Assembly (NCBI GenBank): GCA_963682175.1
Contig: OY821784.1
Span: 36,127,621 to 36,191,620 of the forward strand
Length of the DNA: 64,000 bases
Source of the DNA: Triglochin maritima
Taxonomy: Eukaryota > Streptophyta > Magnoliopsida > Alismatales > Juncaginaceae
Reading direction: 5' to 3'
The position numbers were made by a program, and so were the translations under genes. The notes beneath the pieces were generated by a model that was not told the DNA's origin, did no database searches, and was given only the letters and a program-made list of their open reading frames with translations. Numbering within the stretch: the first letter of the stretch is position 1; each line of letters starts with the position of its first letter. Of this stretch, positions 11,458-60,054 are shown piece by piece.

Positions 11458-11466
11458 TAAATGTTA

Positions 11467-11768
11467 GGAAAAATTTTCAAAATAGAATTTTTTTTTTTAA
11501 AAAACTCTCAAAATAAACCTCAAACAAAAGTAGTTCTCAAACTAGACCCGCTGCCACCACGTGGTGACACGTGGCGGCGGCGGGTTTTGTTTTTTTGTGC
11601 ATAGATAAATCGGCATCACCAATGCCGAGTTCTCCCAGAGAGAACTCGGCACTGGTGATGCCGAGTTCTCCCAGAGAGAACTCGGCACGGGTGATACCGA
11701 GTTCTCTTTGGAAGAACTCGGCACTGGTGATGTCGAGTTCGATTTGATTTTTTATTGCCCAACACTTG
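11467..11768 (+). repeat. MULE-A left terminal inverted repeat
   Basis: This pairs with 18713-19009 at very high identity. It contains a perfect G-box palindrome CACCACGTGGTG beside a second CACGTGG, and then the first units of the GCCGAGTTC/GAACTCGGC hairpin array. Confidence 0.9.
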
Positions 11769-12000
11769 ACGTTTTCTGAGGTGATTCAAATAGAACTCGG
11801 CCGTTAGAGTGCCGAGTTCTATTTGAAAACTGTTCTCCTGGCGCTCAGATCGTGCATGAGACGATTGACGCCCAGGAGAACAGTTACTGAAATACAACTC
11901 GGCATCTAGGATGCCGAGTTCTAAAGGTAGAACTCGGAGTTTGTAACGCCGAGTTCACTTAAAAAAAAGTGAACTCGGCGTTACAAACGCCGAGTTCCGT
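11612..12000. repeat. MULE-A left hairpin array (GAACTCGGC...GCCGAGTTC)
   Basis: Successive inverted pairs of a 9-10 base motif are separated by short variable loops (for example GGCATCACCAGTGCC), forming a row of small perfect hairpins. The array ends just before a TATA box, so it sits where promoter elements would be. Confidence 0.85.
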
Positions 12001-12005
12001 CGGGC

Positions 12006-12012
12006 TATATAA
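12006..12012 (+). promoter_or_regulatory. TATA box of the MULE-A PMD gene, in a hairpin loop
   Basis: TATATAA is placed between the complementary arms GTCGGGCT and AGCCCGAC. The region downstream (TTTCAGGTTAGGGTTTCG) looks like a plant 5' leader. The whole promoter and leader unit is duplicated at 14840-15385. Confidence 0.65.
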
Positions 12013-12619
12013 GCAGCCCGACGCCCCCATCTCCCCCATCCGCCGAGTTTCCGAGTTTTTCAGGTTAGGGTTTCGATTTTTTTTCGATTTCCACCGTTTT
12101 ATTGCCTTTTTTATGTATTAGGATGATATACATTGTTGATTTATGTATGATTGTAGTGTTTTTGTTGGTTTAGGAACCCGTTTTGGTGAAAACTCGAATT
12201 CGATTTTGGGTTTTTAGGCAAAACGTTTTATTTCTTGTTTGATAGTTGATTATTGAAGTTAGTATTGTTGATTATAGGTCTACGGTAGTCATCTTAAAAA
12301 TAGTTGAATTGAAGTATGATTATTGTGATTAAAATTAGATTTTTTGTTGTTATTTATGTTTGAATTTATGTTAATTTGAATGAATGTTAACTTAAAAGTG
12401 ATTTATTTGAGTTTAAATGTATGTGAGTTTGAATGTATGTTAGAATTGAAGTTTGTAGTATTGTTAGTTTATTCTACCGTGCAGGTTTAAATTTACCAAT
12501 TTGAAAAATATAGGAGAGGTTCTGTCAAAATTTTTAAAAACATTCTGACATGATTCTTAACGTTGTTTATTGTAGTTGATTTTATTGGAGAGATTGTTCG
12601 ACGTTTACAGCCGGTACAG

Positions 12620-14478: not shown

Positions 14479-14690
14479 AGAATTAATTGTGAACTTATTT
14501 GGTTGTTTTTATATGATACTTTTGGATGTATGTTAAAATGTTGAACTTCATATTCCATTCGTAGTTGTATTGTGTTTTATCGTACTTGTTTGTGTGTCGT
14601 GTTTGAATTGTGTTTTCGTTGATTTGTGTCGTGGTTGAATTGTCTTTGTTGTGAAACAGGAAATGAAAAAAAAAGTCGAGTTCTTAAATC
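14479..14690. other. 3' flank of the MULE-A PMD gene
   Basis: T-rich sequence with repeated TTGTGT motifs between the PMD stop codon and the middle hairpin array. It probably contains the 3' UTR. No clear poly(A) hexamer was seen. Confidence 0.4.
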
Positions 14691-14696
14691 AATGAA

Positions 14697-15080
14697 CTCT
14701 ACAAAAGAACTCGGCATCATGGATGCCGAGTTCTATTGTTGTGAACACGGCATCACCAGTGCCGAGTTCACACCAATATAACTCGGCATCATGAGTGCCG
14801 AGTTCTATGCTTGGGTTTTTTATTGCCCCATTTGATATTCCACTCGGCTTGCCAGGAGAATAGTGATTCAAATAGAACTCGGCACTGGTAGTGCCGAGTT
14901 CTATTTGAATCACTATTCTCCTGGGGCTCATATTGTGCATGAAACGATTGACGCGCCAGGAGAACAGTAAATGAAATAGAACTCGGCCTCCTAGAGGCCG
15001 AGTTTTAAAGTAAGAATTCGGTGTTGGTAACGCCGAGTTCACTTAAAAAAAGATAACTCGGCGTTGCCAACGCCGAGTTC
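14697..15080. repeat. MULE-A middle hairpin array and duplicated promoter unit
   Basis: A second GAACTCGGC/GCCGAGTTC array separates the two genes. From about 14840 it aligns with the end of the left array (from about 11790), including a shared CTGTTCTCCTGG-type stretch and an AACGCCGAGTTCACTT hairpin. The similarity then continues through the TATA box and leader to about 15385. Confidence 0.8.
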
Positions 15081-15088
15081 TGGAGGTC

Positions 15089-15095
15089 TATATAA
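15089..15095 (+). promoter_or_regulatory. TATA box of the MULE-A transposase gene
   Basis: TATATAA lies in the same context as the box at 12006. Again it sits between short complementary arms (TCTGGA and TCCAGA), though the arm sequence differs from that of the first copy. A non-coding leader exon probably ends at GATTGAG|GTAACT (donor near 15434), with the acceptor TGTTAG just before the ATG at 15541. Confidence 0.6.
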
Positions 15096-15540
15096 GCATC
15101 CAGACGCCCCCCTCTCCCTCAAGCCGGGTTTCCGAGTTTTTCAGGTTAGGGTTTCGATTTTTTTTCGATTTCCACCGTTTTATTGCCTTTTTTATGTATT
15201 AGGATGATATACATTGTTGTTTTATGTATGATTGTAGTGTTTTTGTTGGTTTAGAAACCCGTTTTGGTGGAAACTCGAATTCGATTTTGGGTTTTTAGTG
15301 AAAACGTTTTATTTATTGTTTGATCGTAACTTGAATTTAGTTTTGTTGATTATAAGTCTACGGTAGTCATCTTAAACATTTTATTGGAGAGATTGCTCGA
15401 CGTTCACAGTGGTTTGCTACTACAGTCGATTGAGGTAACTTCTAAAACATTTCAGAATTTTCAACTTTTTAAGTATTTAGTTGTGAAGAACAATCATCTC
15501 ACTTGAACACATTTTCAAATTTATTTAATATATGTTAGGT

Positions 15541-18297
15541 ATGGATAAAGATGATGAAGGATCTTTGTTGGTTATGTATAACGGGAAATTAGAATGTGAC
15601 GGAGATGTGGCAGAATACACAGGATCTGACCGCAAATTGGTAGTTGTTCCGTTGAACATCAAATATGAGGATTTAATGGATGTTATAAGATCTGAATGTT
15701 GTTATCCACACAGTATGTTTGATGTCAAGTTGACGGTGAAATTGCCATTAAACAATGATTGGACTTACGTTCCATTAACCAATGATAGGTCGGTTTATGG
15801 ATTGATGCGTTTGTTTAAACGGATGTCTGTGGTTGGAGTGTATGTGGAAGCTGAACCTAAAGTGCCCGACCCTACGCTGACAACGAACACTCATTCGCCG
15901 GAGTATGGTACAGTAAGGTCGACCGGTTGGGACTGTGGAATAGATTTGAATATAAGTCTAAATCCTACAGCCGAAGTTCCAGCATACCAGCAAATTCCAT
16001 TTTTCCAATCGTATAACTTCCAAACAGGCAACGAATGGTCAGAAAATGCGTGTGACATTCCTTCTAGCAGTGCAAATCCTTATCCTGGTCTGTCGCAATT
16101 TGAACCTTCACATTACAGTCATGATAAGTTTGCTGGAGGGGCTGGACCATCTACCTCATATCCTTACCTTGGGCTTGGTTTGTCACCTGTTGAACCAATT
16201 CATTTTAGTCGACCAGAATGCCGGGAACAGATGCATAGCGTTGAAGACGATGACACTGAGGAATTAGGGGATTACAGCACACCTTTCGCTGTAGAAGATG
16301 AACCTGAAGGTGTTTCTGCTAATGAAGTCGTTCCGGAGACGCAGGATGTCATATATGCGATGGGTCAATCCATAAACCGTGAAGACGACGACGTTGTTGA
16401 TGATGCAGTTGCTAACAACGATATGATTCCAACTCTTAATGAACTTCCCGATATCTTCGAGGACGACAACTGGATAGAGAATTCGGTAATTGAACACTCA
16501 TTCTTCGATGCTGCGAACAATTTTGAACAGAGTGATTGGCATACGGAAGATGGTCGTTCTTTCTGGGATAAACGAATTTTCCCAACCAAAGATGATTTGG
16601 TTCATGCTCTGCAATCGTGGCACATTAAAAAGTTTGTTCAGTATTCAGTTGTGGTTTCTTCAACGAAACGGTATACTGTTCATTGTATTCGTCGTGATGA
16701 AGATAACTGCAAATGGCGTCTACATGCGTCTGTTCCAAAAGGCTGCAGATATTTTCAAGTTAAAACATACGACGCCGAGCACACTTGTTCCAATCCGATA
16801 TTGTTAAACGACAACAAACAATGCAGTGCTAATTTTGTATGCGACTTGATAATGCCATCTGTTAGAACTAAGTTCACAATTACTCCTGCTGAAATAATGG
16901 AAAGGGTGAAGACCAAATACTCACTTGAAATCGGTTACGCTAAAGCATGACATGCTAGGCAAAAAGCGTTGAACCGAATATATGGTGCCGAAGAAGACAA
17001 TTTTAAAGATTTGCGAAGGTTCGTCACAGTTCTCTGTCAGAACAATGAAGGATCTGTTGTCGAAATAGAGTCTGTCCAGATAAATTCAGACGAGGAGATG
17101 TTTAAGCGTGTATTTTGGGCGTTCGGGCCTTCAATTAGTGGGTTTCATTATTGTAGACCCGTTGTCAGTGTGGATGGAACGCACCTCTATAGCAAATATA
17201 GAGGTTTATTGCTAATTGTTGTGGGCACAGATGCAAACAACGGAATTTTTCCTTTGGCATTTGCTGTTGTAGAGAGCGAGAATACAGAGTCGTGGACGTG
17301 GTTCCTTCATTTGCTGGCAAGTAGAGTTACAAGGCGACCCGATTTGTGTATTATCACCGACAGATTTTCGGGAATAAATTCTTGTGTGCGAGCCGCATTT
17401 CCACCTTCGGAGGGCCATGTACATCGATTCTGTCTTCGACACATGAAAGCAAATCTTGCTAAACATCGAAATTGCAAGGAAAGATTGGGACAAATCAAGT
17501 TTTATGAAGCGGGTAAAACTCATTCATTTATGAAATTTGAAGAGTTAATGAAGGCTATTGCAGAGGAACATAAGCCGATATACGAGTGGATTCAACATCA
17601 AGGTCCTTTGGAAAGATGGACTTGTTGTCACGACGGGGGTCGACGTTTCGGATGTATGACAACTAACATGTCAGAAAGCTTCAACAATGTCTTACGAGGG
17701 GCACGCGGTATGCCAATTACAACCATGATTTTGATGACCTTTCTCCGCTTGAACAAATTCTTTGTTAAAAGAAGGGACGTCGCCGAGTCGTGGAATGAAA
17801 CATATGTACCGACAGTCCACACCGTGGTGATGGCAAACAGTAATCTGGCCAGAACACATACAGTAACTCGGTACCACCAGCTGATGTACCAGGTTGAAGC
17901 CAATGACCAGAAAAAATACCTCGTGAAATTTGAAGAAGGAGTGATTACTTGCACTTGTGGATACATAATTGCAATGCACGTCCCATGTTCACATGTACTA
18001 GCAGTTTGCAGTGGCAGACATGCAAATGTCAACACTTCACATTTGGTGTCCCCGTATTATGAGGTTCAAATGTACAAGGAGGCGTACAAACCGATATTTA
18101 TCCCAATTCCTGATGTGAGGTATTGGCCAGATCGAGGCACCATCACAATGAAGCCTCCCCAAACCAAAAGACCTCCCGGTCGGCCTAAATCAACGCGAAT
18201 CCGAAACGAGATGGACGAACACTCTGGAAGAAAGGTAAGGTGTGGGAGATGCGGCGGTATAGGGCATAACCGAAAGCGATGCAAGGAACCTATATAG
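15541..18297 (+). pseudogene. MuDR-type transposase of MULE-A, one in-frame stop
   Basis: A single long frame of about 918 codons is broken only by TGA at 16948-16950, where relatives have Trp (context KA-stop-HARQKAL), so one G-to-A change explains it. Upstream lie a ubiquitin-like acidic N-terminus and the MuDR DNA-binding domain (about residues 345-440; SWHIKKFVQYSVVV and CKWRLHASV). Downstream is the MULE catalytic domain with VVSVDGTHL and LCIITDRFSGI. A SWIM zinc finger (CTCGYIIAMHVPCSH) follows, then a basic GRPK stretch and a CCHC knuckle (CGRCGGIGHNRKRC). I placed the start at the second ATG because an intron acceptor precedes it; the ATG at 15532 is the alternative. The enzyme would cut and join the element ends in the nucleus. 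As read, only the DNA-binding half would be made. Confidence 0.88.
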
Positions 18298-18535
18298 CAA
18301 AATATTTTGTATGTAACTATTTAGTGAGACGAATGAATGTAAGAGTTGATTAATTGTAAGACTTGTAATGTATTTGTAATGTATTTTGTTATGACTTGAA
18401 TGAATGTACGACTTAAATCCTTTTTAAGAGTTGATTAATTGTAAGACGATAATTGTAAGACGAATGAATGTAATGTATTTTTTAGGACCGCAAATTTGTC
18501 TACTTAAGCCTATTGAATTGGACTTCTGCCTATGA
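18298..18535. other. 3' flank of the MULE-A transposase gene
   Basis: Repeated GAATGTAA, TTGTAAGACT and AATGTATTT units, probably the 3' UTR and poly(A) region of the transposase transcript. Confidence 0.4.
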
Positions 18536-19009
18536 AACTCGGCATCTAGAATGCCGAGTTCTATTGTAGACCTGGGCCACCTGGCCGTCACCCATTTTCA
18601 CACAAGATTTGAGTGCCAGGAGAACAGGACCAAATAGAACTCGGCATCCCCAATGCCGAGTTCTATCTGAATCACTATTCTCCTGGCAACTCAATTCGAC
18701 TGGAATTTGAAGTGTTGGGCAATAAAAAATCAAATCGAACTCGACATCACCAGTGCCGAGTTCTTCCAAAGAGAACTCGGTATCACCCGTGCCGAGTTCT
18801 CTCTGGGAGAACTCGGCATCACCAGTGCCGAGTTTTCTCTGGGAGAACTCGGCATTGGTGATGTCGATTTATCTATGCACAAAAAAACAAAACCCGCCGC
18901 CGCCACGTGTCACCACGTGGTGGCAGCGGGTCTAGTTTGAGAAATACTTTTGTTTGAGGTTTATTTTGAGAAATTTTTTAAAAAAAAATTCTATTTTGAA
19001 AAATTTTCC
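18536..19009 (-). repeat. MULE-A right terminal inverted repeat with hairpin array
   Basis: This is the inverse of the left end. Near-identity runs from 18713 to 19009. Further inward (18536-18712) the GCCGAGTTC hairpins continue but the spacer sequence differs from the left side. Confidence 0.85.
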
Positions 19010-19218
19010 TAAACGTTATCATCCAGATGCCGATTTAGGGCATGTTTAGGTGTGGTTTCTTTTATTACCTTTTCTTTTGCTTTAATTAACTTGTCAGGAC
19101 ACTTTTGCTTAAAGATAGGGAGTAGTTTAGATCTATGTTTTTTCTTCTACTTAATTTCCTCACTTTATCTTAACAAGTTCAAAACTGCTTTTTCTTAGCA
19201 TATGATATGGGTAAGTAA

Positions 19219-21260: not shown

Positions 21261-24200
21261 ATGCCTCCTAGACGGGGGAAGGCCGTCGCTCAAACTCGCG
21301 GTGAGAGTGAGACTGCGAGGGATGAGGCTTGGGAGGAGGAGCGTCGGACGTTGTTCGATACGGTCGGACGGCTGACTGAGATGCTACAGCAGCAGGCAGC
21401 ACAGACTGGGTAGACGGGGACTGGCGCTATGCATGACCGGTTTATGCGCCAGCATCCGCCTACCTTTCTGGGGCAGTACGATGCAGAGGCAGCTGAGGAG
21501 TGGATCTTCACGATGCAGAAGATCTTCAGTGCTATTGGTTGTCCTCAAGAGGCGAAGGTGGGTCTGGCCACTTATGTGTTGGGCGGTGCTGCGTCCAACT
21601 GGTGGAGGTCCACATCTGCAGTGGTGTTTGCGGAAAGAGATGATATAGCCTGGGAGGAGTTCGTTGGCGAGTTCAACGAGCAGTATTTTCCGCAGCATGT
21701 GCAGGACGCGAAGAGGGAGGAGTTTCTAAGTCTTCAGTAGGGAGACATGACCCGGGCAGGTTACATCGGGAAGTTCAACGCCCTTGAGCGTTACTGTCCC
21801 GAGATGTATATCACACAGGAGCAGAGAGCTGGGAAGTTCGTCCGAGGGCTCCGGAAGCAATTGAGGACGAAGGTGATGACGCGTATGCCGAACACGTTAG
21901 CCGAGGTCGTGAAGAGTGCCACTGTTCTTGATCGTGACTACAGAGAGAACTACCAGGATGATAGGAGGTCATCGGGTAGGTTCTCTGGGAGGCCGGGAGG
22001 TCAGACTGGGGGGAATCCGGGCAAGAGGCCCCGATTCGAGGGAGCAGGAGCTGCAGTACCACGACCTGAGCCATGTGGTACTTGTGGGAGGTTTCACTCT
22101 GGACAGTGTTTCACCATCGGAGTTTGTCATGGTTGTGGCCAGCTGGGCCACTTTATTAGGAGTTGTCCGAGCCGAGAAGCTGGGTCGAGCAGACCACCGG
22201 GATTACCAGCACCAGGCAGAGGTGGAGGCGGAGGTAGACCACCTTTTATGCCACAGCAGGGGCAGCGCACTGGCAGAGTTTTCACCATCCAGGCAGAGGA
22301 GGCTAGGGATGGAGGCGCTGTAGTGGAAGATACGCTTCTTGTCGCTGATTCAGTAGCTAGGGTGCTTTTTGATTTTGGCGCGACACACTCGTTAATCTCA
22401 TAGCGATTTGCGGGAGTGTTGGGATGTACCCTTGCGATGTTGACTCCCACTTTGGAAGTCAGCACACCCCTGGGTCTGGTGGGCACTGTGGGGAGATTTG
22501 TCCCCGGCGCCACGGATGTTTCGGGAGATCAGGAGTTTCCGGCAGACCTGGTCTTGCTACCGATGGAAGAATTTGATGTCATACTTGGGATGGATTGGCT
22601 GTCCCAATATGATGTTTGAGTCTTGTGCCGTGAGAAGAGGATTTTGATCCCGAGGAAGGGTTTGCCTGATATTCTGATCAGAGGGGTCAGAAACAGAGGA
22701 GGTCACGTTATTGTATCTGCTGTGAGGGCTCAGAGGCTGTTACAGCAGGGTTGTACAGCATTTTTAGCGACGCTTGTGGTTGCGGAGACAGAGTCTCAGA
22801 GGTTGGAGGATATTGAGGTGGTGCAGGAGTTCGCGGATGTTTTTCCAGCGTAGATTCCAGGTTTACCACCGCACCGAGAGTTGGAGTTCGGTATCGAGTT
22901 GGCAGCTGTCACTACACCGCAGTCGAAGGCTCCATACCGGATGACACCTGCTGAGTTGACAGAGTTGAAGAAGCAGTTGCAGGAGTTGATGGACTCTGGA
23001 TTTATCAGACCGAGTGTCTCTCCTTGGGATGCACCAGTTTTGTTCGTGAAGAAGAAGGACGGATCTTTGAGGATGTGCATAGACTACAGGATGCTGAACC
23101 AGGTGACGGTGAAGAATAGGTATCCCTTGCCTAGGATCGAGGACCTCTTTGACCAGCTGCAGTCAGCGAAGATTTTCTCGAAGATTGACCTGCGTTCAGG
23201 ATATCACCAGTTGAGGATCCGAGATGAGGACATCCAGAAGACAGCTTCTAGGACAAGATATGGACACTACGAGTTCTTGGTGATGCCCTTTGGATTGACG
23301 AATGCTCCGGCAGCGTTCATGGATCTGATGAACCGGACATTCAGATAGTATATCGATATATTTGTGATTGTCTTCGTGGATGACATTTTGATCTATTCAC
23401 CGGATGTAGAGCAGCATAGAGAGCATTTGAGGATCGTACTCAGCATCTTGAGAGCTCAGCAGTTATATGCTAAGTTCTCTAAGTGCGAGTTTTGGTTGGA
23501 CAGAGTGGCGTTCCTTGGACACATTGTATCGGCAGAGGGGATATCAGTGGATCGGCGAAGGTAGAGGCAGTGACACAGTGGATGACCCCTACGAGCGTGA
23601 CGGAGATTAGGAGCTTTGTTGGACTGGCGGGTTATTACCGATGCTTCATCAAAGACTTCCCGAGATTGGCAGCACCACTGACGACTCTGATGCAGAAGGG
23701 AGTCACTTTCGTATGGTCGCAGAAGTGCGAGGACAGCTTTCGGGAGCTGAAGAGACTGTTGACCACAGCACCAGTTTTATCATTGCCGAGTGGCATAGGT
23801 GGATTTGTGATTTATAGCGACGCTTCAGGTATTGGCTTAGGATGTGTACTTATGCAGCACGGGAGGGTGATCGCGTACGCATCCAGACAGTTGAAGGTCC
23901 ATGAGAGAAATTACCTGACTCATGATTTGGAGTTAGCAGCAGTGGTTCACGCACTGAAGACCTGGAGACACTATCTTTATGGCGAGCAGTTTGAAGTGTT
24001 TACAGATCATCAGAGTCTGAAGTACCTGTTCTCGCAGAAGGAGCTGAACATGAGACAGCGCAGATGGCTTGAGTTCATTAAGGACTACGATTTCACTATC
24101 TCTTACCATCCGGGGAAGGCGAACACAGTTGCAGACGCTTTGAGCCGGAAGGTGGAGGTATCAGTAGCAGGCCTATGCATTCAGGAGTGGCGACTGCTGG

Positions 24201-24586
24201 AGTCTTTAGCAGAGTGGAGACCATTTGCAGATAGCTCTGAGGGTGCAGTGATTGCAGGGTTGAGAGTAGAGTCTCAGACAATATCGACAGTGATTCATGC
24301 TCAGAATACAGATGAGGAGTTGAGCAGTTTACTACAGTTAGCGGCTAGAGATGGGTCAGACTTCAGAGTTGGAGTGGATGGAGGTCTGAGATTCAGAGAC
24401 CGTATCTGGGTGCCGAGGACAGAGGACCTGAGACATGATATCATGGAGGAGGCACATAGATTGCGATATTCCATTCATCCAGGGAGTACCAAGATGTACA
24501 AAGATCTGCAACGGAACTTCTGGTGGCGATGGATGAAGAAGGACGTTGCAGACTTCGTGTCTAGGTGTTTGGTCTTTCAGCAGGTG
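21261..24586 (+). pseudogene. Gypsy gag-pol polyprotein, multiply interrupted and truncated in integrase
   Basis: One frame from the ATG at 21261 is broken by TAG at 21411, 21738, 22401, 22851 and 23346 and by TGA at 22617. A one-base loss near 23550 shifts the frame. Recognisable parts in order are a gag capsid (WWRSTS), a CCHC knuckle (CHGCGQLGHFIRSC), a protease site altered from the usual DSGA to DFGATHSLIS, a reverse transcriptase with FVDDILIYS, an RNase H with YSDAS and VFTDHQSLKYL, and the start of the integrase zinc domain. The sequence then jumps into LTR sequence near 24587, so the integrase core and polypurine tract are gone. It cannot make a working polyprotein. Confidence 0.9.
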
Positions 24587-24587
24587 A

Positions 24588-25037
24588 GGGTAGGAGTGGT
24601 TCAGTACCGCGGAGGCGGAGAGGGGCATTATTGTGGGCCCGAGGTGGATGATCATGTGCATTGCATTGTCTTTAATTCCTTTTTTTGTATTTTAGGAGGT
24701 TTGGCATACGGGGTTCCTGCAGGGAACTCAGGCATGTTTCAATTGTTTGCATTTCAGGTAGCGAGCAGATTTAGAGTCGAGGTGGTGACCGAGGAGGGTG
24801 CCCCCGGGATCAGATCTTGTCTTCCTTTTATATCTTTTGTTGAGGTAGTGATTACATGTATATTCATTTTTGTTGTAATCACAATTGACTCATATGTATA
24901 GTTTGACTTCCACGTGGATCTATATCTTTATATATATATATATATATTTCGTCTTGTTGTTTCGTGACGTGCCCAGTGTTGTTCGTTGACGGTCTTTATT
25001 ATTGTTTAAATTTTCCGCTGTTTTCGGGAACGTTACA
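24588..25037 (+). repeat. Truncated gypsy 3' LTR
   Basis: This aligns with 20697-21135 of the 5' LTR, from GGAGTGGTTCAG to the terminal GTTACA. The first ~1.5 kb of the LTR is missing. A TA dinucleotide run (24932-24947) is longer here than in the 5' copy. Confidence 0.85.
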
Positions 25038-32820: not shown

Positions 32821-33312
32821 CGATTATTCATCGTCGGAAAACTACTTAAATTGTCCGTACAGATTATCATTTTGCTCTTCTCTCATTTCTACTCCTATAA
32901 CGCGACATCTAACCCTCATATCACATATCTCTCTTCATCTTTCTCTCATAATCATAAAAATAATGTTTTGGAGGTCAGTAATGAGCCAATGGACGCCCCG
33001 GTGTACTCGAATCTGGTAAAATATCCAACATCTTTTTAATAAAAAAAATAGCGGACGTTCGCGGGATCTGCCCCTCCCATGGGGGGCGATTTACCTAGAC
33101 GCCCGACTCGATTTTTTTTTTTTGGCTTACTTCACCGAATCCAGGCGTTTTGTCAGACATTTTCGTGGTGTTTGTACTGAGAAAATGAGGAAAATGTAGG
33201 TAGAAACATTGTTTTAAGAGACGAGACGAAATGTGTATTAAATGAATTGTTAAGGGTAAAAAAAATAATTATTAGGGACAATTTAAGTAGTTTTCCGTCG
33301 ACGAATAGTAAC
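32821..33312. mobile_element. Non-autonomous relative of MULE-B (about 490 bp)
   Basis: The two ends form an inverted repeat (GGAAAACTACTTAAATTGTCC in both arms). The left interior matches the MULE-B-type left end of the copy at 43888, including ATAACGCGACAT and an ATG-led mini-exon that reads into CGAATCTG|GTAAAA. The right interior has the MULE-B right mini-exon on the minus strand (ATGTCTGACAAAACG, ending GGTGAA|GTAAGC). Between them is one short GC-rich hairpin. The target duplication is not clear. Confidence 0.7.
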
Positions 33313-43887: not shown

Positions 43888-44142
43888 CTGAATTACTAAA
43901 CATCGCCCCAAAATTACTTAAATCGCCCCTTGAAATTACCAAATTGCCCTTCTCTCATTTCTACTGCTATAACGCGACATTTTACCCTCCTATCACACAT
44001 TTCTCTTCATCTTCCTCTTATAATCATAAAAAATAATGTTTTGAAGGTCAGTAATGAGCCAACGGACGCCCCAGTGTACTCGAATCTGGTAAAATATCTA
44101 ACATCTTTTTAATAAAAAAATAATAAAAAATAATAAAAAATT

Positions 44143-44365
44143 ACGGGCGTCCGACGGAGCCGCCCCCACGTAGGAGGGGGCGTCTGGGTAAGACGCCTCC
44201 CCCATGGGGGAGGCGTTTTACCCAGACGCCTCCCCCATAAGGGAGGCGTGTTACCCAGACGCCCCGCCCAAGGGGGAGGCGTCTGGGTAAAACGCCTCCC
44301 CCATGGGGGAGGCGTCTTACCCAGACGCCCCCTCCTACGTGGGGGCGGCTCCGTCGGACGCCCGT
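44143..44365. repeat. GC-rich hairpin array (GACGCC...CCATGG...GGCGTC)
   Basis: Tandem palindromes with a CCCCCATGGGGG core alternate with CTGGGTAA spacers. The outer ends (ACGGGCGTCCGACGGAGCCG and its inverse) close the array as one large hairpin. Confidence 0.85.
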
Positions 44366-44837
44366 AAATTTTTTTATTATTATTATTAAGATAATTGATT
44401 ATAATTTTAGATAATTGTTAAATTAATTAATTAATAAGTTAATAATTACTATATTCGGGTGACTGATACCCCTTCGGTACACCGAAAATTCAAAAATTTC
44501 CAGAACCAACAATTTCAAAATCCAAAAAATTTCCAGGGGGCGCTGCCCCCTTGCCACCCCCGCCACCTCACCGGCGAGGTGGAATGCCGCTCGCTCACCG
44601 GGGAGCGAGACCCCCGACCGACCTGTCGAGGTGGTATTTGTAAGTAAGGATGTTTTACCGCCAGGGGATTTTGGATCTTAAAAAATGTTGAATCTGGAAA
44701 TTATTTGAATCTTCATCACTTGCAAAAAACTCATTGTAATCCGACCGGTTACCACCAAAAACTTGCAAAGAAACGTCAAATAATTTGAGATAACACACCG
44801 TATAATTTTAATTTAACAAAAAAATTAAAAAAAAACG

Positions 44838-45058
44838 GGACGTCTGGCTAAGACGCCTCCACCATGGTTGAGGCGTCTGGCTAAGACGCCTGTACCATGG
44901 TGGAGGCGTCTTAGCCAGACGCCTGCACCATGGTCGGGACGTCTGGCTAAGACGCCTGTACCATGGTGGAGGCGTCTGGCTAAGACGCCTGTACCATGGT
45001 GGAGGCGTCTTAGCCAGACGCCTCCACCATGGTACAGGCGTCTTAGCCAGACGCCCGA
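44838..45058. repeat. Second GC-rich hairpin array of the 43.9-kb element
   Basis: Repeats of GACGCCT.CACCATGGTGGAGGCGTC with TGGCTAA spacers. The reading frame across it yields only repeated RLAKTPVPWW peptides and is not a gene. Confidence 0.85.
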
Positions 45059-45281
45059 GTCGGAAAAAAAAATCCGCCTCCGTTATTTCGCCTAATCTAG
45101 GTGGTTCGTCAGATATTTTCGTGGTGTTGGTACTAGGAATGTTAGTAAAACTGAGTCAAAAACCTTGTTTAAAGACACGGGACGATATGGGTATTAAATA
45201 TATTGTTAAGGGTAATTTGGTAATTTCAAGGGGCGATTTAAGTAGTTTTGGGGCGACGTTTAGTAGTTTCCTAAAAAAAAG

Positions 45282-46377: not shown

Positions 46378-46719
46378 TTAGTGTCATATCAACCTCTAAA
46401 AGTCAAGCACTTAAACATTATCAAATATCAATCTTCTTTTGGTGCTATTTACAAGTAGTCAATTGCGATTTTACCTTTCTTAAGGCTATCTTTGTAAAGT
46501 GGTGAAATTAAAAATAGTTTTTTTCCCAGAAGTGATAGAAGGCCTAAAAGGAGGGGGAAAATATAATCTGTCATAAAGTGAACGATATTTGGAATCAACT
46601 CAAAACAAATAAAACATAAAACAACTATGGAAGGAGAAAAACTAGAAGTTTTTATTTATCTTAATCTACATAAAGATAAGGAAATTTTTTCAAAATAATC
46701 AAAAAAAAAATAAAAAATT

Positions 46720-47700
46720 GGAAGAATATGCACTTTTTGAAAACTTAATTGGCAAAATATGCACATTAAAAACGGCACCACAGGTGCCGTTTTTCATTAA
46801 CTAAAAACGACATCACTGATGCCGTTTTTACACTTGATAAAAACGGCATCAGTGATGCCGTTTTTACCTGGGAAATTTTTTTCTTGGTTTCGAGATGTTT
46901 ATTTTAGCTAAGTTATGTTGAACAAGCAACGGGTCGGTCGGGGGTCTCGCTCCCCGGTGAGCGAGCGGCGTTCCACCTCGCCGGTGAGGTGTCGGGGGTT
47001 GAAAGGGGGCAGCGCCCCCTGGAATTTTTTTTGGATCTTTAAATTGTTTGATATAGATTTTTTTAATCCAAAACATACTTGCATAAAACTCGTTGTAATC
47101 CAACCTGTTACCACAATAATACAAATTTATAACCCATACACTTTATCCTTGTGGCTCATGATGCCCGCATATGTAGGTCTTTTTTTGTTCTAGAGATGGA
47201 TGAACATATGGACGTATAGTTCTTGGTAAGTCTTATTACATACTTTTGGATCTTTAAATTGTTTGATCTGGAAATTTTTTAATCGAAAACATACTGATTG
47301 TGACGGGGTTGTAGATCATTTTTTTTGCAATGAGTTTTATGCAAGTATGTTTTAGATTAAAAAAATCTATATCAAACAATTTAAAGATCCAAAAAAAATT
47401 CCAGGGGGCGCTGCCCCCTTTCAACCCCCGCCACCTCACCGGCGAGGTGGAATGCCGCTCGCTCACCGGTGAGCGAGACCCCCGACCGACTCGTTGCTTG
47501 TTCAACATAACTTAGCTAAAAGCAACATCTCGAAACCAAGAAAAAAAATTCCCAGGTAAAAACGACATCACTGATGCCATTTTTATCAAGTGTAAAAACG
47601 GCATCAGTGATGTCGTTTTTAGTTAATGAAAACGGCACCTGTGGTGCCGTTTTTAATGTGCATATTTTATCAATTAAGTTTTCAAAGTGCATATTCTTCC
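46720..47700. mobile_element. Foldback MULE-like element (981 bp) with GGCATCAGTGATGCC hairpins
   Basis: Ends GGAAGAATATGCAC and its inverse. The 9-bp flanks TAAAAAATT (46711-46719) and AAAAAAATT (47701-47709) match at 8 of 9 positions. Each arm holds three AAAAACGGCA...TGCCGTTTTT hairpins and then a GC-rich module (GGGGCAGCGCCCCC; CTCACCGG.GAGCG). The two arms are nearly perfect inverses, so the whole element can fold back. No protein-coding gene is present. Confidence 0.75.
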
Positions 47701-47709
47701 AAAAAAATT

Positions 47710-48739
47710 TTTTTGATTATTTTGAAATTTTTTCCTAAAGATAAATAGTTAAAACGCTCGACTTTTATAAAGAGTACAAAAATTACATCGGTTACATCCA
47801 TTTCTAGCCGGATACAAACTCCAGACTGTTATAAGTAGTTCCATATTTATTCCAGTCCAAACTTATTATTATGGCTCAATGGATTAGACGACACACTGCA
47901 TCTGACATATGTCGATGTATATAATATAGATATATTAATTATAAATTATATACATGTAACTAAAAAATTAAGTTAATTTTTTAATAATTTTTAAGATCAT
48001 AAATTCAATATTAAACAAATCAGAGTGGAAAAAAACAAAAAAAATAAAAACTAAGTGTTTTGAAATGCGACCACATCAGTCCGCATATACAGGCTCAGAT
48101 GCAGCCTGCATCGGGGAAATGCGATGATCTTCTCCCCCAATATCGTGCCAGCATCCACATATGTAGCCGCATCCGGCCTCATTTCAAAACATTGGTTTTT
48201 CCTAAACAAGTTCATACAAAGAATTTTTTTACAAATAAGACATCAAATCAAGGTTTGACGACAAATCCAACAAATTCAACCAACATCCGCTTTACACAAT
48301 TTCCTTAAGAAGACAATAACCGGCATATGACATCTTAAAGTTAACTTCAACATTCTACACGAATGTACTTAGCTTCTTGAGAAATCATCATTTTGAAAAT
48401 CTAGAAGGAAACCTACTTGTCAAATCATCTAATTTATGGATCATCTATTAGATCACAATGCAAAGCTCAAAACAAAATATTGCAGAATTAATGAAAAGAA
48501 AAAAGAGTAACCAATGATCAGATTCTTGTAGATGTTTATAGTTTTCCATTCATTTCCCCCCAAGCGTATTTCACTGCAAATTCAAGACAAGAAAACTTCC
48601 GTTATTGAGTGAACATTCACGTCTTCTTTGAGTTCAGTCAAAAGTCGCTGGCCGTTTGAAGCAAAATATAAAAAATGTAGTCAGTAGACCACTTCTAATT
48701 GTCTACAAAAATCGGGCCTACGTTTTCGCCCTGGTGGGT
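47710..48739. other. Intergenic and 3' flank of the Tim17-family gene
   Basis: A short inverted repeat at 48055-48200 (TTTTGAAATG... and CATTTCAAAA) resembles a small MITE. The last ~250 bases may be the 3' UTR of the minus-strand gene. Confidence 0.45.
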
Positions 48740-52829: not shown

Positions 52830-53564
52830 AGCCGACGGACTCGAGTGGGGTTTTGGGTATTTGGCAGATTCGGACCCCCACTTTTTTATGATTTTCCACT
52901 TCTGACATTTTATAACGGATCGAAGCAACTTAGGATTGTAAATGGGTAGAGTCGAAGTGAGTTTAGGGTTGTGAATGAGCCAGGTTGGATTGAAGCTCAA
53001 TCACAACTTGACGATAAAATGATATTCATGTCGATTTGAACCTAATTCAAAATTTTCTAACTGCAATTTAACTTATAATTCGCAAGCTAAACAGGTTCGA
53101 GTCTGGTTGATGATTTAATAAGTCAGTGTTATTATCACAGTTTAAACATACTAAGTTTTACATAAACACATAAAATGCTCCTTAAACAATTCAAATGACC
53201 CATTTAAATGAGACCATTAACTATACTATGAATTTGTTTGCGTGGATCGACCTGTTAACTTAAGTTCCAAACAAGAACAACAATGGGTGGTTGATCGACT
53301 CACTTTATTTGATCAATCTGATCACACAAATGAAGATAAAAATGTGTCTTCAACTAAGTCATGTGTGCATCAAGTATATAAGTGATTAAGATTATGTGAA
53401 AGTGATCATAAAAAATAAAGTTACATATTGCCTAAAAGTCAACAAATCTGTCATCCATATATTTCCATCAGGTACCATGTTCTTGCACTGTTATTCAACT
53501 CCCATTCACCACTTATCAGTTTACCACAATTGAATTGATGATTTTAATTGTCATCCAATAAAAA
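52830..53564. other. Upstream region of the Tim17-family gene
   Basis: Intergenic sequence between the minus-strand gene and MULE-B. The last ten bases include the left copy of the MULE-B target duplication (CAATAAAAA, 53556-53564). No gene recognised. Confidence 0.5.
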
Positions 53565-53643
53565 CTGAACTGCTAAACATCGCCCCAAAATTACTTAAAT
53601 CGCCCCTTGAAATTACCAAATTGCCCTTCCTCCTATTTTTGCT

Positions 53644-53650
53644 TATATAT
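53644..53650 (+). promoter_or_regulatory. TATA box of the MULE-B PMD gene
   Basis: TATATAT lies 62 bases before the PMD start codon and about 80 bases inside the element end, so the promoter is within the terminal region. Confidence 0.55.
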
Positions 53651-53711
53651 CTCACAATTTCACTCTTTTTTCAAAACTTTCTCTTCCTATACCTACTACA
53701 CAAGATTACGA

Positions 53712-56398
53712 ATGTCTCGGAGGCCAGGGAAGCAGCCAGCAGTTCCCCCGGTGTACCCGTATGAGGTAACATTACGTTATTTATTTGTTTTTAAAAAAAA
53801 AAAAAAAGGCGTCGGCGTCCGAGGGAGACGCCCCCCGCATGGGGCGGGCGTCCGAGGAAGCCGCTCCCCCTATGGGGGGAGCGGCTTCCGAGGACGCCCG
53901 ACCCATGCGGGGGGCGTCTCCCTCGGACGCCGACCCGAAGCGGGAGACGTCTGCGGAAGACGTCTCCCCGATGGGGGAGACGTCTTCCGAAGACGTCTCC
54001 CCGTAGGAGGAGGCGTCTGCGACAGACGCCTCCACCTTGCGGGAGGCGTCTGTCGCAGACGCCTCCTCCTTTTTTGTTTTTTTAATTAATAAATATCATA
54101 ATTACTTTAATAAATAGTGATAAATCAAAAAAATTAATTTAACAAATTCTTATTAAGTTTAACATTTGTGATATTTAGTTTTAACAAATTTTGATTTAGT
54201 TTAACAATTGTTTTAATTTAGTTTAACAAATTTTGATTTAGTTTAACAATTTTGATAATTAAGTTTAACAAATTTTGATTTAGTTTAACAATTTTGATAA
54301 ATATGATAATTTAGTTTAACAAATTTAACAAATTTGTATTTAAAATTTCAATAAATAGTCATCGGGTCACAGTGGAGGGAGAGGCAAGTCGATACCATTA
54401 CACGCTTTCCGTTCTTTAGAGGATGATTCAGCACCGCGTCATCCACGTAGACGGGGGATATCTGCTTCGGTCAGGAGGGAGAGGGAGGCATTACGTCGTC
54501 GTGAGGAGGAGGATGATTCCTTCGATGATGAGCATGTGGATAGTTTCGACGACGAGAGCGACGATGATGGCCCGTATGATGTGCGGCCGGAGGTGGAGAG
54601 GCAGGGGGATTATAGCGGAGGACGTGGTCGAGCGGGTACTTCTACTTCCGCCGGATGGATGGTGCGGAAGGGTAGGGGTGGGAGGTTTACGGCCGGGGAT
54701 TCGAGCTCGTGCACTGTTGATCCCCGCGCTCAGAAGAAGAAGAGGGTCCAGGACGATTCTTGGATCGTGAGCAGTATGACGCCTGGTGGTCCTTTAGATG
54801 GGAGCGTCATTCCTAGTTTCTGGGGTCACATTGCTAGACGGATCTGGGACGGAGAGGATCGGAAGGTTCTGAAGTGCCAGAATCGGCACAGAGCCTGTAC
54901 AGCACTACAGGGTTGGCGGTCTACACTGAGTGCTGATATCAGAGAGGAGATTAGTGCCACGCATTTGGGGCACTTACCGTACATCATGTTCCATTATCTC
55001 GACATGCCTTTGATTTCGGCGTTTGTGGAGCGGTGGCAGCCTGACACCAACACTTTCCACATGCCTTTCGGAGAGATGACGATCATGCTTCACGATGTTT
55101 TCCAGATACTGCGACTTCCTGTGGATGGTCGTCTGGTTAGTGCTCAGGGGTCGACGTCTGAGCTGAGGTGTTATGTGGCAGAGTTGCTTGGTGTCACACC
55201 TGATGGTCTGGCGAGAGATACAGCTTTATGGAGTGGTGGTGGTGTCGGCATCGACTCCCTTGAGGACCTATGCAGACGGGCACGACCTCCGCGGGCCGAT
55301 GATACACAGTTAACGGCGTACCTATTCTTGATGCTCGGAGCCGTCTTGTTTGTCGACAAGAGTGGTTGTCGGATCAGACCACGCGATCTACTGGAGGCTA
55401 GGGACCCGGAGACCGTTCGTGAGTACTCGTGGGGGTCAGCGACGTTGGCATACCTGTACCGGCAGCTTGGGATAGCTAGCCGTGCGGATTGTTCTGGGAT
55501 TGCAGGTTGTCTTACGCTGCTGCAGGCGTGGATATACGAGTACTTTCCTGCATTCCGCCCGCATCGTGAGCGGAAGATTATCGACGAGGGTCATCCACGT
55601 TCGGGTATGTGGGTTGTCCGGAGCGAGGACAAGAGCGATGGACGATTGCGTTCCATCCGCGCACGGCTAGATCAGATGACTGCATCAGAGGTATCAAACT
55701 TTACACCATTTATTTAATTTTAAGATGTATTATTATTAATGTGTTAAACTTTAGGTGGAGTGGTTACCCTATGGTCCTGACCCAGCAGCGGATGTCCCGA
55801 GGACTTTATTGATGGGTCTTATTCGTTATCGGGATATCATAGAGCCTTATATGCCCGATCGGGTCTTGCGTCAGTTAGGATATGTTCAGGTGATCCCGGT
55901 TGACATTCCGACACCAGAGCATGCGGTGCGGTCTGCGACAGCAGCGACGTACGACGTCAGGTTCCCCGCTTCTACAGCGGAATCGACTTGGCGGACATTT
56001 CCGAGATCATGCCGATTGTTCCTTGGCGACTTCAGACGTAGTCGCGACCCCTCCGAGTGTGATGCACGTTATCTTGATTGGTTCGGTAGTTACTCACATC
56101 CTATCATCGTCCGTGGTGCCTCCCGGAGAGCAGATCGACCACCAGATAGGACGTGTGGCGATCTGGTAATTTTTTCATTTTATCTAAATTTATTTGTACC
56201 GTATAATTTGTTAATGTACGCTAATGTTAATGTTATGTGCAGTGGATGGGTAAGATGATACGGGCTGTAGACCCAATCTTGCAGATGAGGGATGAGCTGC
56301 CAGACGATGCCAGAGCTGCATGCGGAGATGTGGATCAGATCATACAGTCATGGCATACTCAGTTAGGCATCTCCGACCATGATTCGGATGATGAGTAG
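53712..56398 (+). CDS. Plant mobile domain (PMD/MAIL1-like) protein of MULE-B
   Basis: Four exons, 53712-53765, 54359-55690, 55755-56165 and 56243-56398, give 650 residues. All introns are GT-AG and fall between codons. Exon 1 encodes only 18 residues (MSRRPGKQPAVPPVYPYE), and intron 1 contains the hairpin array. Residues 19-110 are charged and low-complexity, with Arg-rich then Asp/Glu-rich blocks. The plant mobile domain follows from about residue 165 (VERWQPDTNTFHMPFGEM, RDLLEARDPETVREYSWGSATLAYLY, YLDWFGSYSHP). The C-terminus ends acidic (HDSDDE), unlike the basic tail of the MULE-A protein. It is convergent with the transposase gene, with only ~360 bases between their stop codons. Function in the element is unknown. 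Cellular relatives act in genome stability and silencing. Confidence 0.88.
53808..54072. repeat. GC-rich hairpin array in intron 1 of the MULE-B PMD gene
   Basis: Nested and tandem palindromes of the GGCGTC...GACGCC type have CCCATG-containing or CCCCGATGGGG loops. The first half folds exactly on itself around GGGGGAGCGGC, and the second contains GACGTCTTCCGAAGACGTC-like units. Frames through it give only repeated Gly/Arg or Ser/Glu/Asp peptides. Confidence 0.85.
54073..54358. repeat. Tandem AT-rich repeat in the same intron
   Basis: Six or so degenerate copies of a unit reading TTTAGTTTAACAAATTTTGA run up to the exon 2 acceptor (ATAG at 54355-54358). Confidence 0.7.
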
Positions 56399-56758
56399 GC
56401 TGATCTGTTGTACCGTACTCTTAGTATTTGCATTTATATTTGTTTATCTGTTGTACGCTTAGTATTTGTGTTTGCTTATCTGTGGTACGCTTAGTATTTG
56501 CATTTATATTTGTTTATCTGTTGTACGCTTATTATTTATTATTTGTGTTTGTGTTTGCGAACATGTCGTACGCTTATTGTTTGTATTTGTGTTTTGCTTA
56601 TCTGTTGTACCCTTATTATTTGTATTTGTGTTTGATAACCTTTCGTACTATTATATATAATGCAAATAAAGCAAACATATCAAAACATATTACATAATAA
56701 AGCAACACTATATAATGTACAAACATATCAAAACATATTACATAATTATACAAACATA
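56399..56758. other. Intergenic between the convergent MULE-B genes
   Basis: This short spacer has tandem copies of TATCTGTTGTACGCTTA (56405-56640) on the PMD side and ACATATCAAAACATATTAC repeats (56672-56775) on the transposase side. It must hold both 3' ends. Confidence 0.6.
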
Positions 56759-59700
56759 TCAAAACATATTACATAATTGTTGCCAATATGCTATCCTATG
56801 TTGGTACTCCAGCTCCCATCCAATAACACTCTCATCTCGTATTTGATACCACAGAGTCGCTATAGGAGGTACGGGGAATCCCTCATTCAATTCCAAACGA
56901 ATGTAATGAGCGTAACTCCCTAAATGAGCAATAATCAACTCTCTGCACGGTCTCGTCACGGTAGGCGGACTCTCCCAAGGTAGAACTGTAAGACATGGGT
57001 ACAACGAACCATCATTTCCGAGAGAGAAGAACATAACTGCACACTTGTAAAAATTTGCAATGGGAAACAAGTCCGTCCACGTCTCCATATAGTGATTCTC
57101 GCCACAAGGTCCCCCGCCCCAATTAATCCGGTGACGAGCCTCCGCCACACCGTCGTAGTATACGTGCTCATAAAAAGATGGGTTCGCAGCTATCTCATTT
57201 GAAATCGAACGACGGGCGAGTTGCCAATTGTCTTCACCACCGTGGAAAACATCGGCGACACATCGAAATCCACAGTTTCCATCAGCACGTACATCATTCC
57301 ACTGGTGTAGGAATGGCATAATGATTCCTGGAATTCTATCTCCATATGGGAAGTCGTCTACGTCAGCCCGCCCAGTCACTACAATATGAACAAAAAATAC
57401 AGTTAGATATAATAACAAAAGATACATATTTACTGAAATAAATAACAAAATTATAATAATAATAAATGTAAGGATGGTATACCTGATCCTCCTCTCACTG
57501 ACGAAGAACCAGAAGATCGACCACGACCTTTGCTTCCACTACCGGAAGAACGACCACGACCTCTACTCCCACTACCTGAAGATCGACCACTACCTCGCTC
57601 TGCATACTCAAACGCACTAGGGTGCCGTCGTGTCGACTTTCCCCTTGGTCGACCTCGTAGCTTTGTTTTTACTGCAGGCTCTTTCAAATTCGAATGTTCG
57701 GGGTGTAGCTGCTCGAATAAAACCCGAGAGGCAGATCGAATTACGGTAGGGTCACTTCCTGCAATCTCATCAACCAGACTGCGAAAATGTTCGGCGTCTT
57801 GAGCTGCCTGAGACACAAACTCTGCGTTCCCGGCTCCTTCCCCAATGACAAGTGTCCTCCAGAACGAATGAATCTGCTCTAAGTAAATTCCGTTTTCTGA
57901 TTCAAGACATCCACGGATGGTACATGCGCAAGGTATCCCATGAGAAGTCAGAAAAGCGCACTCGCAACGATATTCAACTTCATCATCTAACTGTTGCATT
58001 CTCTTCACCTCCTGACTCAGCAACTGCAAACAGTGATGCGAAACTCTACCATTTATGTGACGATATAGAGCATGTCCGAAATTAGTCAAATTTCGCCGTC
58101 TCGAGTCTTCAAGAAAGTTTCGAATATTCGTCAGCTGCATTTCAGTAGCCGCGTTGACGCGCTCGAAAAGAGTGTCCAGAGCTGCAGTCGATGTAGAAAT
58201 CCACTCTTTTAGAGCCGAATGAGCACTTTCGACCCTACAATTCGTGGTGTTCCCAAAATGAAGGACTTTGTTCGTCCAATTCAGCACAAACTTTTCTTTA
58301 TGCACCAACCACGTGGTGTCCAGATACTCCGTGATAGCCGGCCACGATCTATACAAATCTTTCAGAGCATACACAGCTCTATCATACTCGGCTTCTGAAG
58401 TAGAAAGCATGATCTTCCTCCATCTTCCACGCCTCAAAGTCTCTGCCATCTCCTTATTCTTGCCGAATACGTGGTACGCGTAATTCAATACGTCTTTGTT
58501 GATGTGCCATGTGCAGAGTAAATGAGCAGAGTCAGGAAAAACCTCTCTCACTGGTCGCATAAGGCCTAACTCCCGGTCTGTTATTATTGCAGTCGGGCTG
58601 ACAGTCCCCAATAACAGATCTCTCAACTTCTCCATCACCCACAAATAACTGGAGTAAGATTCATCCATCAAAATCGCATATCCAATAAGGAAATTCATGT
58701 TTGCTGGTGTGACCCCAATCATTTCGAACAAAGGCATCTTATACTTGTTCGTCTTGTAAGTCGAATCCATGCAGATAACGAAAGGATATGTCCGCAACAA
58801 CTGGACTGACGTCGGATATGCCAAAAAAGCGTGAGTGACGACATCAGTTTCTGGATCCGCCATAATCCAATGTAAGTACTCACACTGCACTGCTTGGTAG
58901 AGAAACTGCTGGACGGGATTCCGATCTTCAGATTTTGTCCTCCTCATGTAATCTCTGAAATTATAAATATGCCTTTGATTTGGATTGTCCTCCGGGAATT
59001 TTTCTTTTACTGCCTTCAAGATGTTCCGTGGTTTTCCTTGCGCCTCAGTCATATCACGAACAATCTTCTTCGCCCCAGAACTTAGACCACTAATTTGACG
59101 ATGACCCTCTGGATAAACTGCCAGTCTGTGGTTGTGATGTCCGTGACCACTATTAAAAACCACAACCCATCCATCACGATCCCGTCGCTCCACCACTTTT
59201 ATTAAGAAACGGCAACCGCAACCCTTTCTTTTGGTGTTTCTTCGAAGTGCAGTATCCATATCCCGAGACTCCATTTGATTTCGCCGGTCGCATCTCAAAT
59301 AACAATCCATCCGACTATCTGATCTTGTTTTGTACGACGACACGACCAAAAAAAACCCAGCTCCGATAGCTACTTGTTTGGCCCATTTACATGCTTCATC
59401 GATTGTTTCAAAGATTTGTGTAGTTTGAAATAACTCACTGTAATCCACTCCATCACCACCGAAATCTGGAACCTACAAAAATATATTCAAAATTAAAAAA
59501 ATAAAAAAATAAATTCGAAATTAAAAAAATAAAAAAATAAACTCGAAATTAAAAAAACAAAATCAAAAAAAAAAAAAAAGGCGTCTGTGTTAGACGCCTG
59601 CCCCATGGATGGGGCGTCTGTGTTAAACGCCTTCCCCAACGGTAAGGCGTCTGCGTAGGACGCCTGACCGAAGGGAAGGGCGTCTACTACAGACGCCTTA

Positions 59701-59890
59701 CCCATGGGGAGGACGTCTACATAAGACGCCTCTCCCATTGTGTAGGCGTCTGCGTTAGACGCCTCGGCCATGGGGAGGGCGTCCTACGCAGACGCCCTCA
59801 CCATGGGGGAGGCGTCTAATGCAGACGCTCGGCCCAAAAATTTCCCCGCGCCAGGCTTACCTCACCCGATGCATCACCCTCGCCAGACAT
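56759..59890 (-). CDS. FAR1-type MULE transposase fused to an OTU-like cysteine protease domain
   Basis: Minus-strand exons 59890-59861, 59472-57483 and 57378-56759 give 879 residues with no stops and consistent phases (0, then 1). Exon 1 encodes 10 residues (MSGEGDASGE). Exon 2 carries a FAR1-like zinc DNA-binding domain (about 30-127; Cys and HGHHNH residues), then the MULE catalytic domain with candidate acidic triad D246 (CMDSTYK), D309 (TDRE) and E425 (VESAH). A SWIM-like finger (CECAFLTSHGIPCAC, about 513-527) and a GRGRSSGSGS-rich linker (about 640-673) follow. Exon 3 is an OTU fold with RADGNCGFR (D706, C709) and H831 (AHYI) as the probable catalytic residues. The transposase half should cut and join the element ends. 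The OTU half could remove ubiquitin from host proteins, which is inference. The fusion depends on the splice at 57483/57378. Confidence 0.9.
59578..59832. repeat. GC-rich hairpin array in intron 1 of the transposase-OTU gene
   Basis: Repeats of AGGCGTCT....AGACGCC units with CCCATGGGG-type loops, similar in build to the PMD-side array but with different spacers (GTGTTAGACGCCT and variants). They lie between exon 1 (59861-59890) and the exon 2 acceptor. Confidence 0.85.
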
Positions 59891-59940
59891 TTTCGTGGTG
59901 TTTTTACTGATAAATTATGAATATACAAGACCATATGCCT

Positions 59941-59948
59941 TATTTATA
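59941..59948 (-). promoter_or_regulatory. TATA box of the transposase-OTU gene
   Basis: TATAAATA on the minus strand lies 51 bases before the start codon and about 100 bases inside the element end, mirroring the arrangement at the PMD end. Confidence 0.6.
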
Positions 59949-60054
59949 GACACGGGACGATTTGGGTATTAAATATATTGTTAAAGGCAATTTGGTAATT
60001 TCAAGGGACGATTTAAGTAGTTTTGGGACGACGTTTAGTAGTTCCCAATAAAAA

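Follow-up and report, generated by a model that had tools for sequence, protein, structure and literature searches.

What does a plant mobile domain (PMD) protein do for the transposon that carries it? We approached this question through a 64,000-nucleotide window of the Triglochin maritima genome (C16:36127621-36191620; assembly of 1.06 Gb), in which a Mutator-like element (MULE) of 6482 bp, at 53565-60046, encodes a PMD protein and, facing it, a transposase with a predicted ovarian tumour (OTU) protease tail. Our preferred reading, held at slightly better than even confidence, is that a two-gene MULE has multiplied recently here and that its PMD protein, as a VANC-like factor, would recognize the dyad arrays that the first introns of its own element carry and would lift host silencing there. 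We favor this role because of a predicted VANC21 fold, arrays at the 5′ side of both genes, motifs that are specific to each family, and recent spread. VANC proteins are reported to bind short tandem-repeat motifs in the noncoding parts of their own elements, leading to a loss of methylation there (PMC5735166, PMC10398659).

The element, its copies and their spread

The ends of the element are those common to 21 copies with distinct duplications (the window copy and 20 others that we sampled). With the boundaries at 53565 and 60046, all 21 copies are flanked by a perfect 8-bp target site duplication, and all 21 duplications differ. At the window copy the duplication, AATAAAAA, occupies 53557-53564 and, placed by the same 8-bp rule, recurs identically at 60047-60054. 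The terminal inverted repeats, at 53567-53628 (plus strand) and 59983-60044 (minus strand), are 62 nt long and 90% complementary, and together with the 8-bp duplications they agree with the inverted repeats and 8- to 11-bp duplications that characterize MULEs. The original prediction, an intact mobile two-gene MULE with matching ends, is thus borne out by the 62-nt arms, the two open frames, and the 21 duplications, with one correction: it proposed a perfect 9-bp duplication, which we reject since 8 bp suits all 21 copies. The ends proposed there give 9 or 10 identical bases at the window copy, where the extra matching bases are chance. The search that it recommended for copies with different duplications found distinct, perfect ones in 20 of 20 other copies, at a length of 8 bp rather than 9.

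The two genes point inward, the PMD gene from the left end and the transposase gene from the right, and their 3′ ends meet at 56398 and 56759; TATA-like stretches can be seen by eye between each terminal repeat and the adjoining start codon. On the plus strand, the PMD gene consists of exon 1 (53712-53765; start codon at 53712, assigned from the translation and a GT donor), a GT-AG intron 1 (53766-54358) that contains the left dyad array, exons 2 (54359-55690) and 3 (55755-56165), both open frames in phase 0, and exon 4 with the stop codon (56243-56398, from the translation). On the minus strand, the transposase gene begins with exon 1 (59861-59890; start codon at 59890, from the translation) and continues through a GT-AG intron 1 (59473-59860) that contains the right dyad array, exon 2 (57483-59472), and exon 3 with the stop codon (56759-57378). 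Consistent splice phases and two readable genes had been claimed, and the copies agree: of the 13 copies with both frames open, 12 have GT-AG at each of the five introns, and the remaining copy has one AT-AG.

About a thousand recent copies are present in the genome. With at most 3 mismatches, a 40-mer from PMD exon 2 was found at 521 + 545 places and a 40-mer from the OTU exon at 1076 + 1059 places (reversed controls, 0 in each case). There are twice as many places for the OTU exon as for PMD, possibly through loss of the PMD gene in deleted copies, a slower OTU exon, or both. The 20 sampled copies were drawn from 40 listed ones (12 of 22 on C3 and 8 of 18 on C1). At the left end all 40 match the window with 100% identity, and the sample is therefore tilted toward young copies. 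Both frames are open in 12 of the 20, and deletions, frame shifts, or stops affect one or both genes in L009, L010, L012, L014, L017, L021, L022, and L024. The original prediction had left room for a PMD gene lying outside the terminal repeats in every other copy; we found it full or near-full length, and always within the repeats, in 17 of 20, with remnants in L009 and L010 (exon 1 only) and L024 (part).

The 13 open copies, the window's included, are 98.8 to 99.97% identical (mean, 99.4%). The corresponding place on C15 lacks the element: the two flanks, once joined, align with it at 76%, interrupted by small gaps. We take this place as the homoeologous site, empty of the insertion. From the near-identical open copies and the empty C15 site, we conclude that the family moved recently and that this insertion is absent from the presumed sister chromosome. 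Among the open copies, the ratio of nonsynonymous to synonymous polymorphism (pN/pS) was 0.31 in the PMD gene and 0.41 in the transposase; it reached 0.82 in the OTU part, in which there were few changes. Variable codons were silent versus altered in the proportions 17 versus 20 for PMD (P = 0.0045) and 15 versus 21 for the transposase (P = 0.021); both silent counts exceed a 1:3 neutral expectation, a ratio that is approximate and that is applied here to copies that are not independent.

The PMD protein and the dyad arrays

The PMD protein has 650 amino acids, and its PMD domain at 232-572 (Pfam; E = 1.3e-61; 209 bits against a cut-off of 34.9) is its sole Pfam match at an E of ≤0.001. The predicted model of a PMD relative with 54% identity matches the VANC21 fold, which is the only clear fold match of that model, and the window protein is accordingly predicted to share the fold. 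One point weighs against a VANC-like role: the relative's model is helical, which is a caveat on its match to VANC21. The VANC domains DUF1985 and DUF287 were not matched at an E of ≤0.001 in the window protein by Pfam, and DUF1985 was touched by 4 of 26 aligned PMD proteins, with a best E of 0.0072. Because VANC proteins are recognized by DUF1985 plus DUF287, we do not file the window protein as one.

The first introns of both genes hold arrays of GGCGTCT-N5-AGACGCC-type dyads. The right array (59580-59829) has 8 dyads, with half-site starts that alternate between 12 and 21 bp, and the same alternation is found in both arrays of a short non-autonomous relative at 43888-45271. That relative has the same terminal repeats, 7 + 7 dyads, its own 8-bp duplication (TAAAAAAA), and no intact gene. 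The left array (53814-54063), delimited from half-site positions and unit alignment, keeps the 33-bp phase and carries more changes than the right. Over 30 aligned units (8 + 8 from the window element and 7 + 7 from the short relative), information averaged 1.70 bits per base in the half-sites, against 0.33 for spacer bases and 0.76 for linker bases, and the central CG of each half-site was present in 30 of 30 units. As sequences, the arrays look like paired protein half-sites. An RNA-hairpin reading of the arrays was rejected: half-site changes in the right array are mostly unmatched in the partner half-site, from which it follows that base pairing is not what is conserved there. The left array does contain long palindromes.

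GC-rich palindromic repeats are able to fold and might be a source of small RNAs, in keeping with another hypothesis, that the arrays are silencing targets or slippage by-products and that PMD and OTU are passengers without a role in mobility. Tandem repeats can indeed be targets of RNA-directed DNA methylation (PMC10398659). We give this hypothesis the least credence of those considered here, in that half-sites are conserved while spacers are free, silent changes are in excess in PMD, and the OTU Cys and His are retained across aligned relatives.

Numbers of dyads were compared across the 21 copies. Every one keeps 7 or 8 dyads in its right array; in the left array there are 5 or 6 in 17 copies, 2 in L021, and 1 in L009, L010, and L017. 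We do not take array retention as proof of a need in cis, since the left array is mostly lost in 4 of the 20 sampled copies.

A second, distant PMD-MULE lies in the window at 11460-19017. It has terminal repeats of 308 nt (94%) and 19 dyads of the form AACTCGGCA-N7-TGCCGAGTT, arrayed in its ends and between its genes; its PMD is 31% identical to the first, its transposase, on the MuDR side, has an in-frame stop at 16948-16950, and no target duplication around it was clear by eye. These elements bear on a further hypothesis, in which the arrays are sites bound by the FAR1-like zinc region of the transposase, for synapsis or self-regulation, and PMD is a MURB-like insertion helper. The TnpA sites of maize Spm offer a parallel. 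The arrays lie near both ends, the short relative keeps both without an intact gene, and the gene layout is that of MuDR, in which MURB is needed for insertion (PMC9168764). We consider this unlikely, although it is the strongest competitor to a VANC-like PMD: the model of the PMD relative has no clear fold match other than VANC21, the left array is mostly lost in four sampled copies (though deletions may postdate insertion), and the arrays of the second element are not all near its ends, one of them lying between the genes.

Whether other PMD families pair with dyads of their own was visible in the wider genome. A search for PMD gave 10,464 first-look candidates, of which 117 were scored; the best two matches, on C15 and C16, each consist of one open frame (687 and 682 amino acids) and are likely host genes. 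Eight transposon loci (4.2 kb each) among the 117, and one of the two top-scoring loci, were compared for dyads. In L041, the PMD is 96% identical to that of the second element, and 7 dyads of the AACTCGGCA-N7-TGCCGAGTT type are present. A third family (L034, L035, L036, L038, L039, and L040), with PMDs 53 to 55% identical to the second and 96 to 100% identical to one another, has 6 dyads of a third type, AAAACGGCA-N7-TGCCGTTTT, at each locus. This type also occurs 6 times in a short element with long inverted repeats in the window (46670-47740; bounds approximate), which is likely a gene-less partner of the third family. One further member of that family, L037 (C8:19022394-19026594; 95 to 97% identical to its kin), has no dyad in its 4.2 kb, and the presumed host locus L042 has none either.

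Dyads of another family's type were found in 0 of the 13 sequences tested, and single-base shuffles give ≤0.008 per sequence. It is this exclusivity that is informative, because the half-sites were chosen from these same loci. The two closer PMDs pair with closer dyads and the same spacer, and the distant PMD pairs with an unrelated dyad. A more general hypothesis, which we hold at close to an even chance, is that transposon PMD proteins are structural kin of VANC and act as anti-silencers that recognize specific sequences, with every lineage tied to a 5′ dyad array of its own; host MAIN/MAIL1 would then be a silencing arm derived from a transposon anti-silencer, and the three families would be three lock-and-key pairs.

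The PMD protein might instead mimic MAIN/MAIL1 and disturb the MAIN/MAIL1/PP7L silencing complex everywhere, with the arrays unread. MAIN, MAIL1, and PP7L interact with each other and keep transposable elements (TEs) silent (PMC7156037), and a counter-silencing role for TE-borne PMDs has already been proposed (PMC5418596, PMC8616336). However, identity between the element PMD and the probable host PMD gene on C15 is only 24%, and mimicry leaves the family-specific dyads unexplained; we regard it as improbable.

For a VANC-like PMD protein, we postulate by analogy a candidate anti-silencing activity through binding of the tandem motifs and removal of methylation. The PMD protein, rather than the transposase, would read the dyads as half-site pairs; its binding would open the two promoters near the element ends, and the transposase could then cut and insert copies. 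The PMD protein may also take a MAIN/MAIL1-like route; the MAIN/MAIL1 complex is required for genes bearing the promoter motif DOWN (PMC7156037, PMC9899485). The suggestion in the original prediction that the PMD protein acts on host silencing gains support from the predicted fold and the motif arrays, although the idea itself was already in print. The dyad arrays and the copy number do not figure in that prediction.

The transposase and its predicted OTU tail

The transposase has 879 amino acids, with a MULE domain (PF10551) at 242-336 (Pfam; E = 4.5e-24). Exon 2 encodes a FAR1-like zinc region, the DDE core, a SWIM-like motif recognized by eye, and a basic linker. D246, D309, and E425, which we take to be the catalytic DDE residues, are the same in all 13 open copies. 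The FAR1 N-terminal domain scores 17.1 bits against a Pfam cut-off of 28.1 (E = 0.0093), and the FAR1-type (Jittery) group 36 is listed with a single open reading frame (PMC6446971, Table 1), whereas this element has two genes.

The transposase was described earlier as ending in an OTU cysteine protease; this tail is encoded by exon 3. No Pfam OTU model matches the tail at cut-off (the best is Peptidase_C65, E = 0.31), and among PDB sequences OTUD5 is matched at E = 0.07. An AlphaFold2 model built from 17 sequences has a pLDDT of 91.9, and its 12 matches to PDB folds at an E of ≤0.001 are all OTU domains or VCPIP1, headed by DUBA, OTUD3, OTUD1, and viral OTU domains. The D-G-x-C motif, Cys included, is invariant in the 17 aligned rows, and the His is present in at least 90%; the 16 relatives in this alignment were chosen among matches that already bore the motif. 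The claim therefore stands on predicted fold and conserved Cys and His, by which we predict the tail to be OTU, and not on a Pfam assignment. The motif DG.C.[FY] is found in 28 of 58 transposase matches, one of which (P0058) is a chance occurrence far from the C terminus, and some matches without it are shorter gene models. Its presence in many relatives implies that the fusion is widespread among them and is not a quirk of the window copy.

We speculate that the OTU tail could strip ubiquitin, or a modifier of that kind, from one of two substrates, the transposase itself or a chromatin factor of the host; trimming of ubiquitin-like marks is a candidate role. The OTU Cys is kept in 12 of 13 open copies. 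The other, L023 (C1:62341327-62348407), has both frames open and a Tyr in place of the catalytic Cys (C709Y), a natural test of the importance of OTU.

Relatives, known systems and neighboring features

The plants that yield matches to the PMD protein and to the transposase are largely the same (Chenopodium, Bienertia, Spinacia, Mercurialis, Euphorbia, Linum, and Oldenlandia); Orobanche, Striga, and others are among the PMD matches only. Quick trees were built with SH-like approximate likelihood ratio test (SH-aLRT) support and no bootstrap, for PMD from 50 rows (48 of 120 listed matches and the two window PMDs) and for the transposase from 41 (40 of 58 matches and the window's). The element's PMD protein and its transposase each fall in a 7-row clade with Bienertia and a Chenopodium cluster of large size (57 and 63 members, respectively), with SH-aLRT support of 99; the PMD clade additionally includes Beta. 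These parallel clades are consistent with a two-gene element common to those plants. No protein combining PMD and MULE was found among the matches listed, from searches whose length limits exclude very long fusions.

The combination of PMD with a transposase-OTU fusion in convergent orientation had been called unusual. The two-gene element is intact, but PMD antisense to MULE, an OTU gene in a MULE, and opposed genes are each known. PMD genes antisense to the transposase are listed for several MULE groups, and in the rows covered of Table 1 of PMC6446971, PMD is given for groups 42 and 45-50 and for neither of the FAR1-bearing groups 35 and 36. PMD-transposase fusions are described in grasses and Amborella (Ikeda 2017, PMC5418596). 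These PMD-carrying MULEs (Ikeda 2017, PMC5418596; Dupeyron 2019, PMC6446971) likewise place PMD beside a MULE transposase, often antisense; here, PMD is a gene of its own, its neighbor is a transposase that is FAR1-like and OTU-tailed, and dyad arrays are present. Maize MuDR (mudrA/mudrB) also has two opposed genes, one of them the transposase (PMC9168764), whereas the window element has a PMD helper, an 8-bp duplication, and an OTU tail. Abermu of barley shares a very high copy number and an antisense accessory gene; it differs in its 9-bp duplication, its transposase nearest MuDR, and an accessory gene given there as of unknown function, with PMD unnamed in the parts consulted (PMC9168764). 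An ovarian-tumour gene occurs in MuDR-6_HM of Cnidaria (PMC6446971, Table 1); the window element is from a plant, and its OTU is fused to the transposase C terminus, a tail found in many plant relatives.

A further likeness is to VANDAL21/VANC21 (PMC5735166, PMC10398659), also a MULE in which an accessory gene goes together with tandem-repeat arrays, placed both upstream and within introns, and with family-specific motifs; a common fold is predicted. The VANC21 motif is a single 9-mer, YAGTATTAY, in contrast to a dyad; VANDALs have degenerate terminal inverted repeats and VANC with DUF1985 and DUF287, in contrast to PMD; and anti-silencing is shown for VANDAL21/VANC21 and predicted for the window element. 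Kaonashi/KIU VANDALs join an anti-silencing gene to a deconjugating protease domain, Ulp1 (PMC13317346), which lies within the VANC gene, whereas OTU lies within the transposase. In the literature covered, from which most subscription papers were absent, we found neither a VANC fold of PMD nor dyad arrays in PMD elements.

PMD is termed a domain of unknown function (PMC8616336), although a very large number of transposon genes contain it, as do host silencing genes. If our reading is true, it would explain the purpose of many transposon-borne PMD proteins, and OTU would join Ulp1 as a protease domain in a MULE with a candidate anti-silencer. The predicted VANC21 fold and family-specific arrays point to a direct, testable PMD function, DNA-reading anti-silencing, and about a thousand recent copies with three motif-protein pairs make specificity testable by swaps.

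Other parts of the window hold minor features. A short diverged remnant of the window element's family lies at 32829-33310, its array shrunk to fragments. An inner stretch of the short relative (about 44520-44640) recurs, by eye, inside the element at 46670-47740. Open frames at 1-2217 and 21741-24901 resemble, by eye, parts of a long terminal repeat (LTR) retrotransposon polyprotein.

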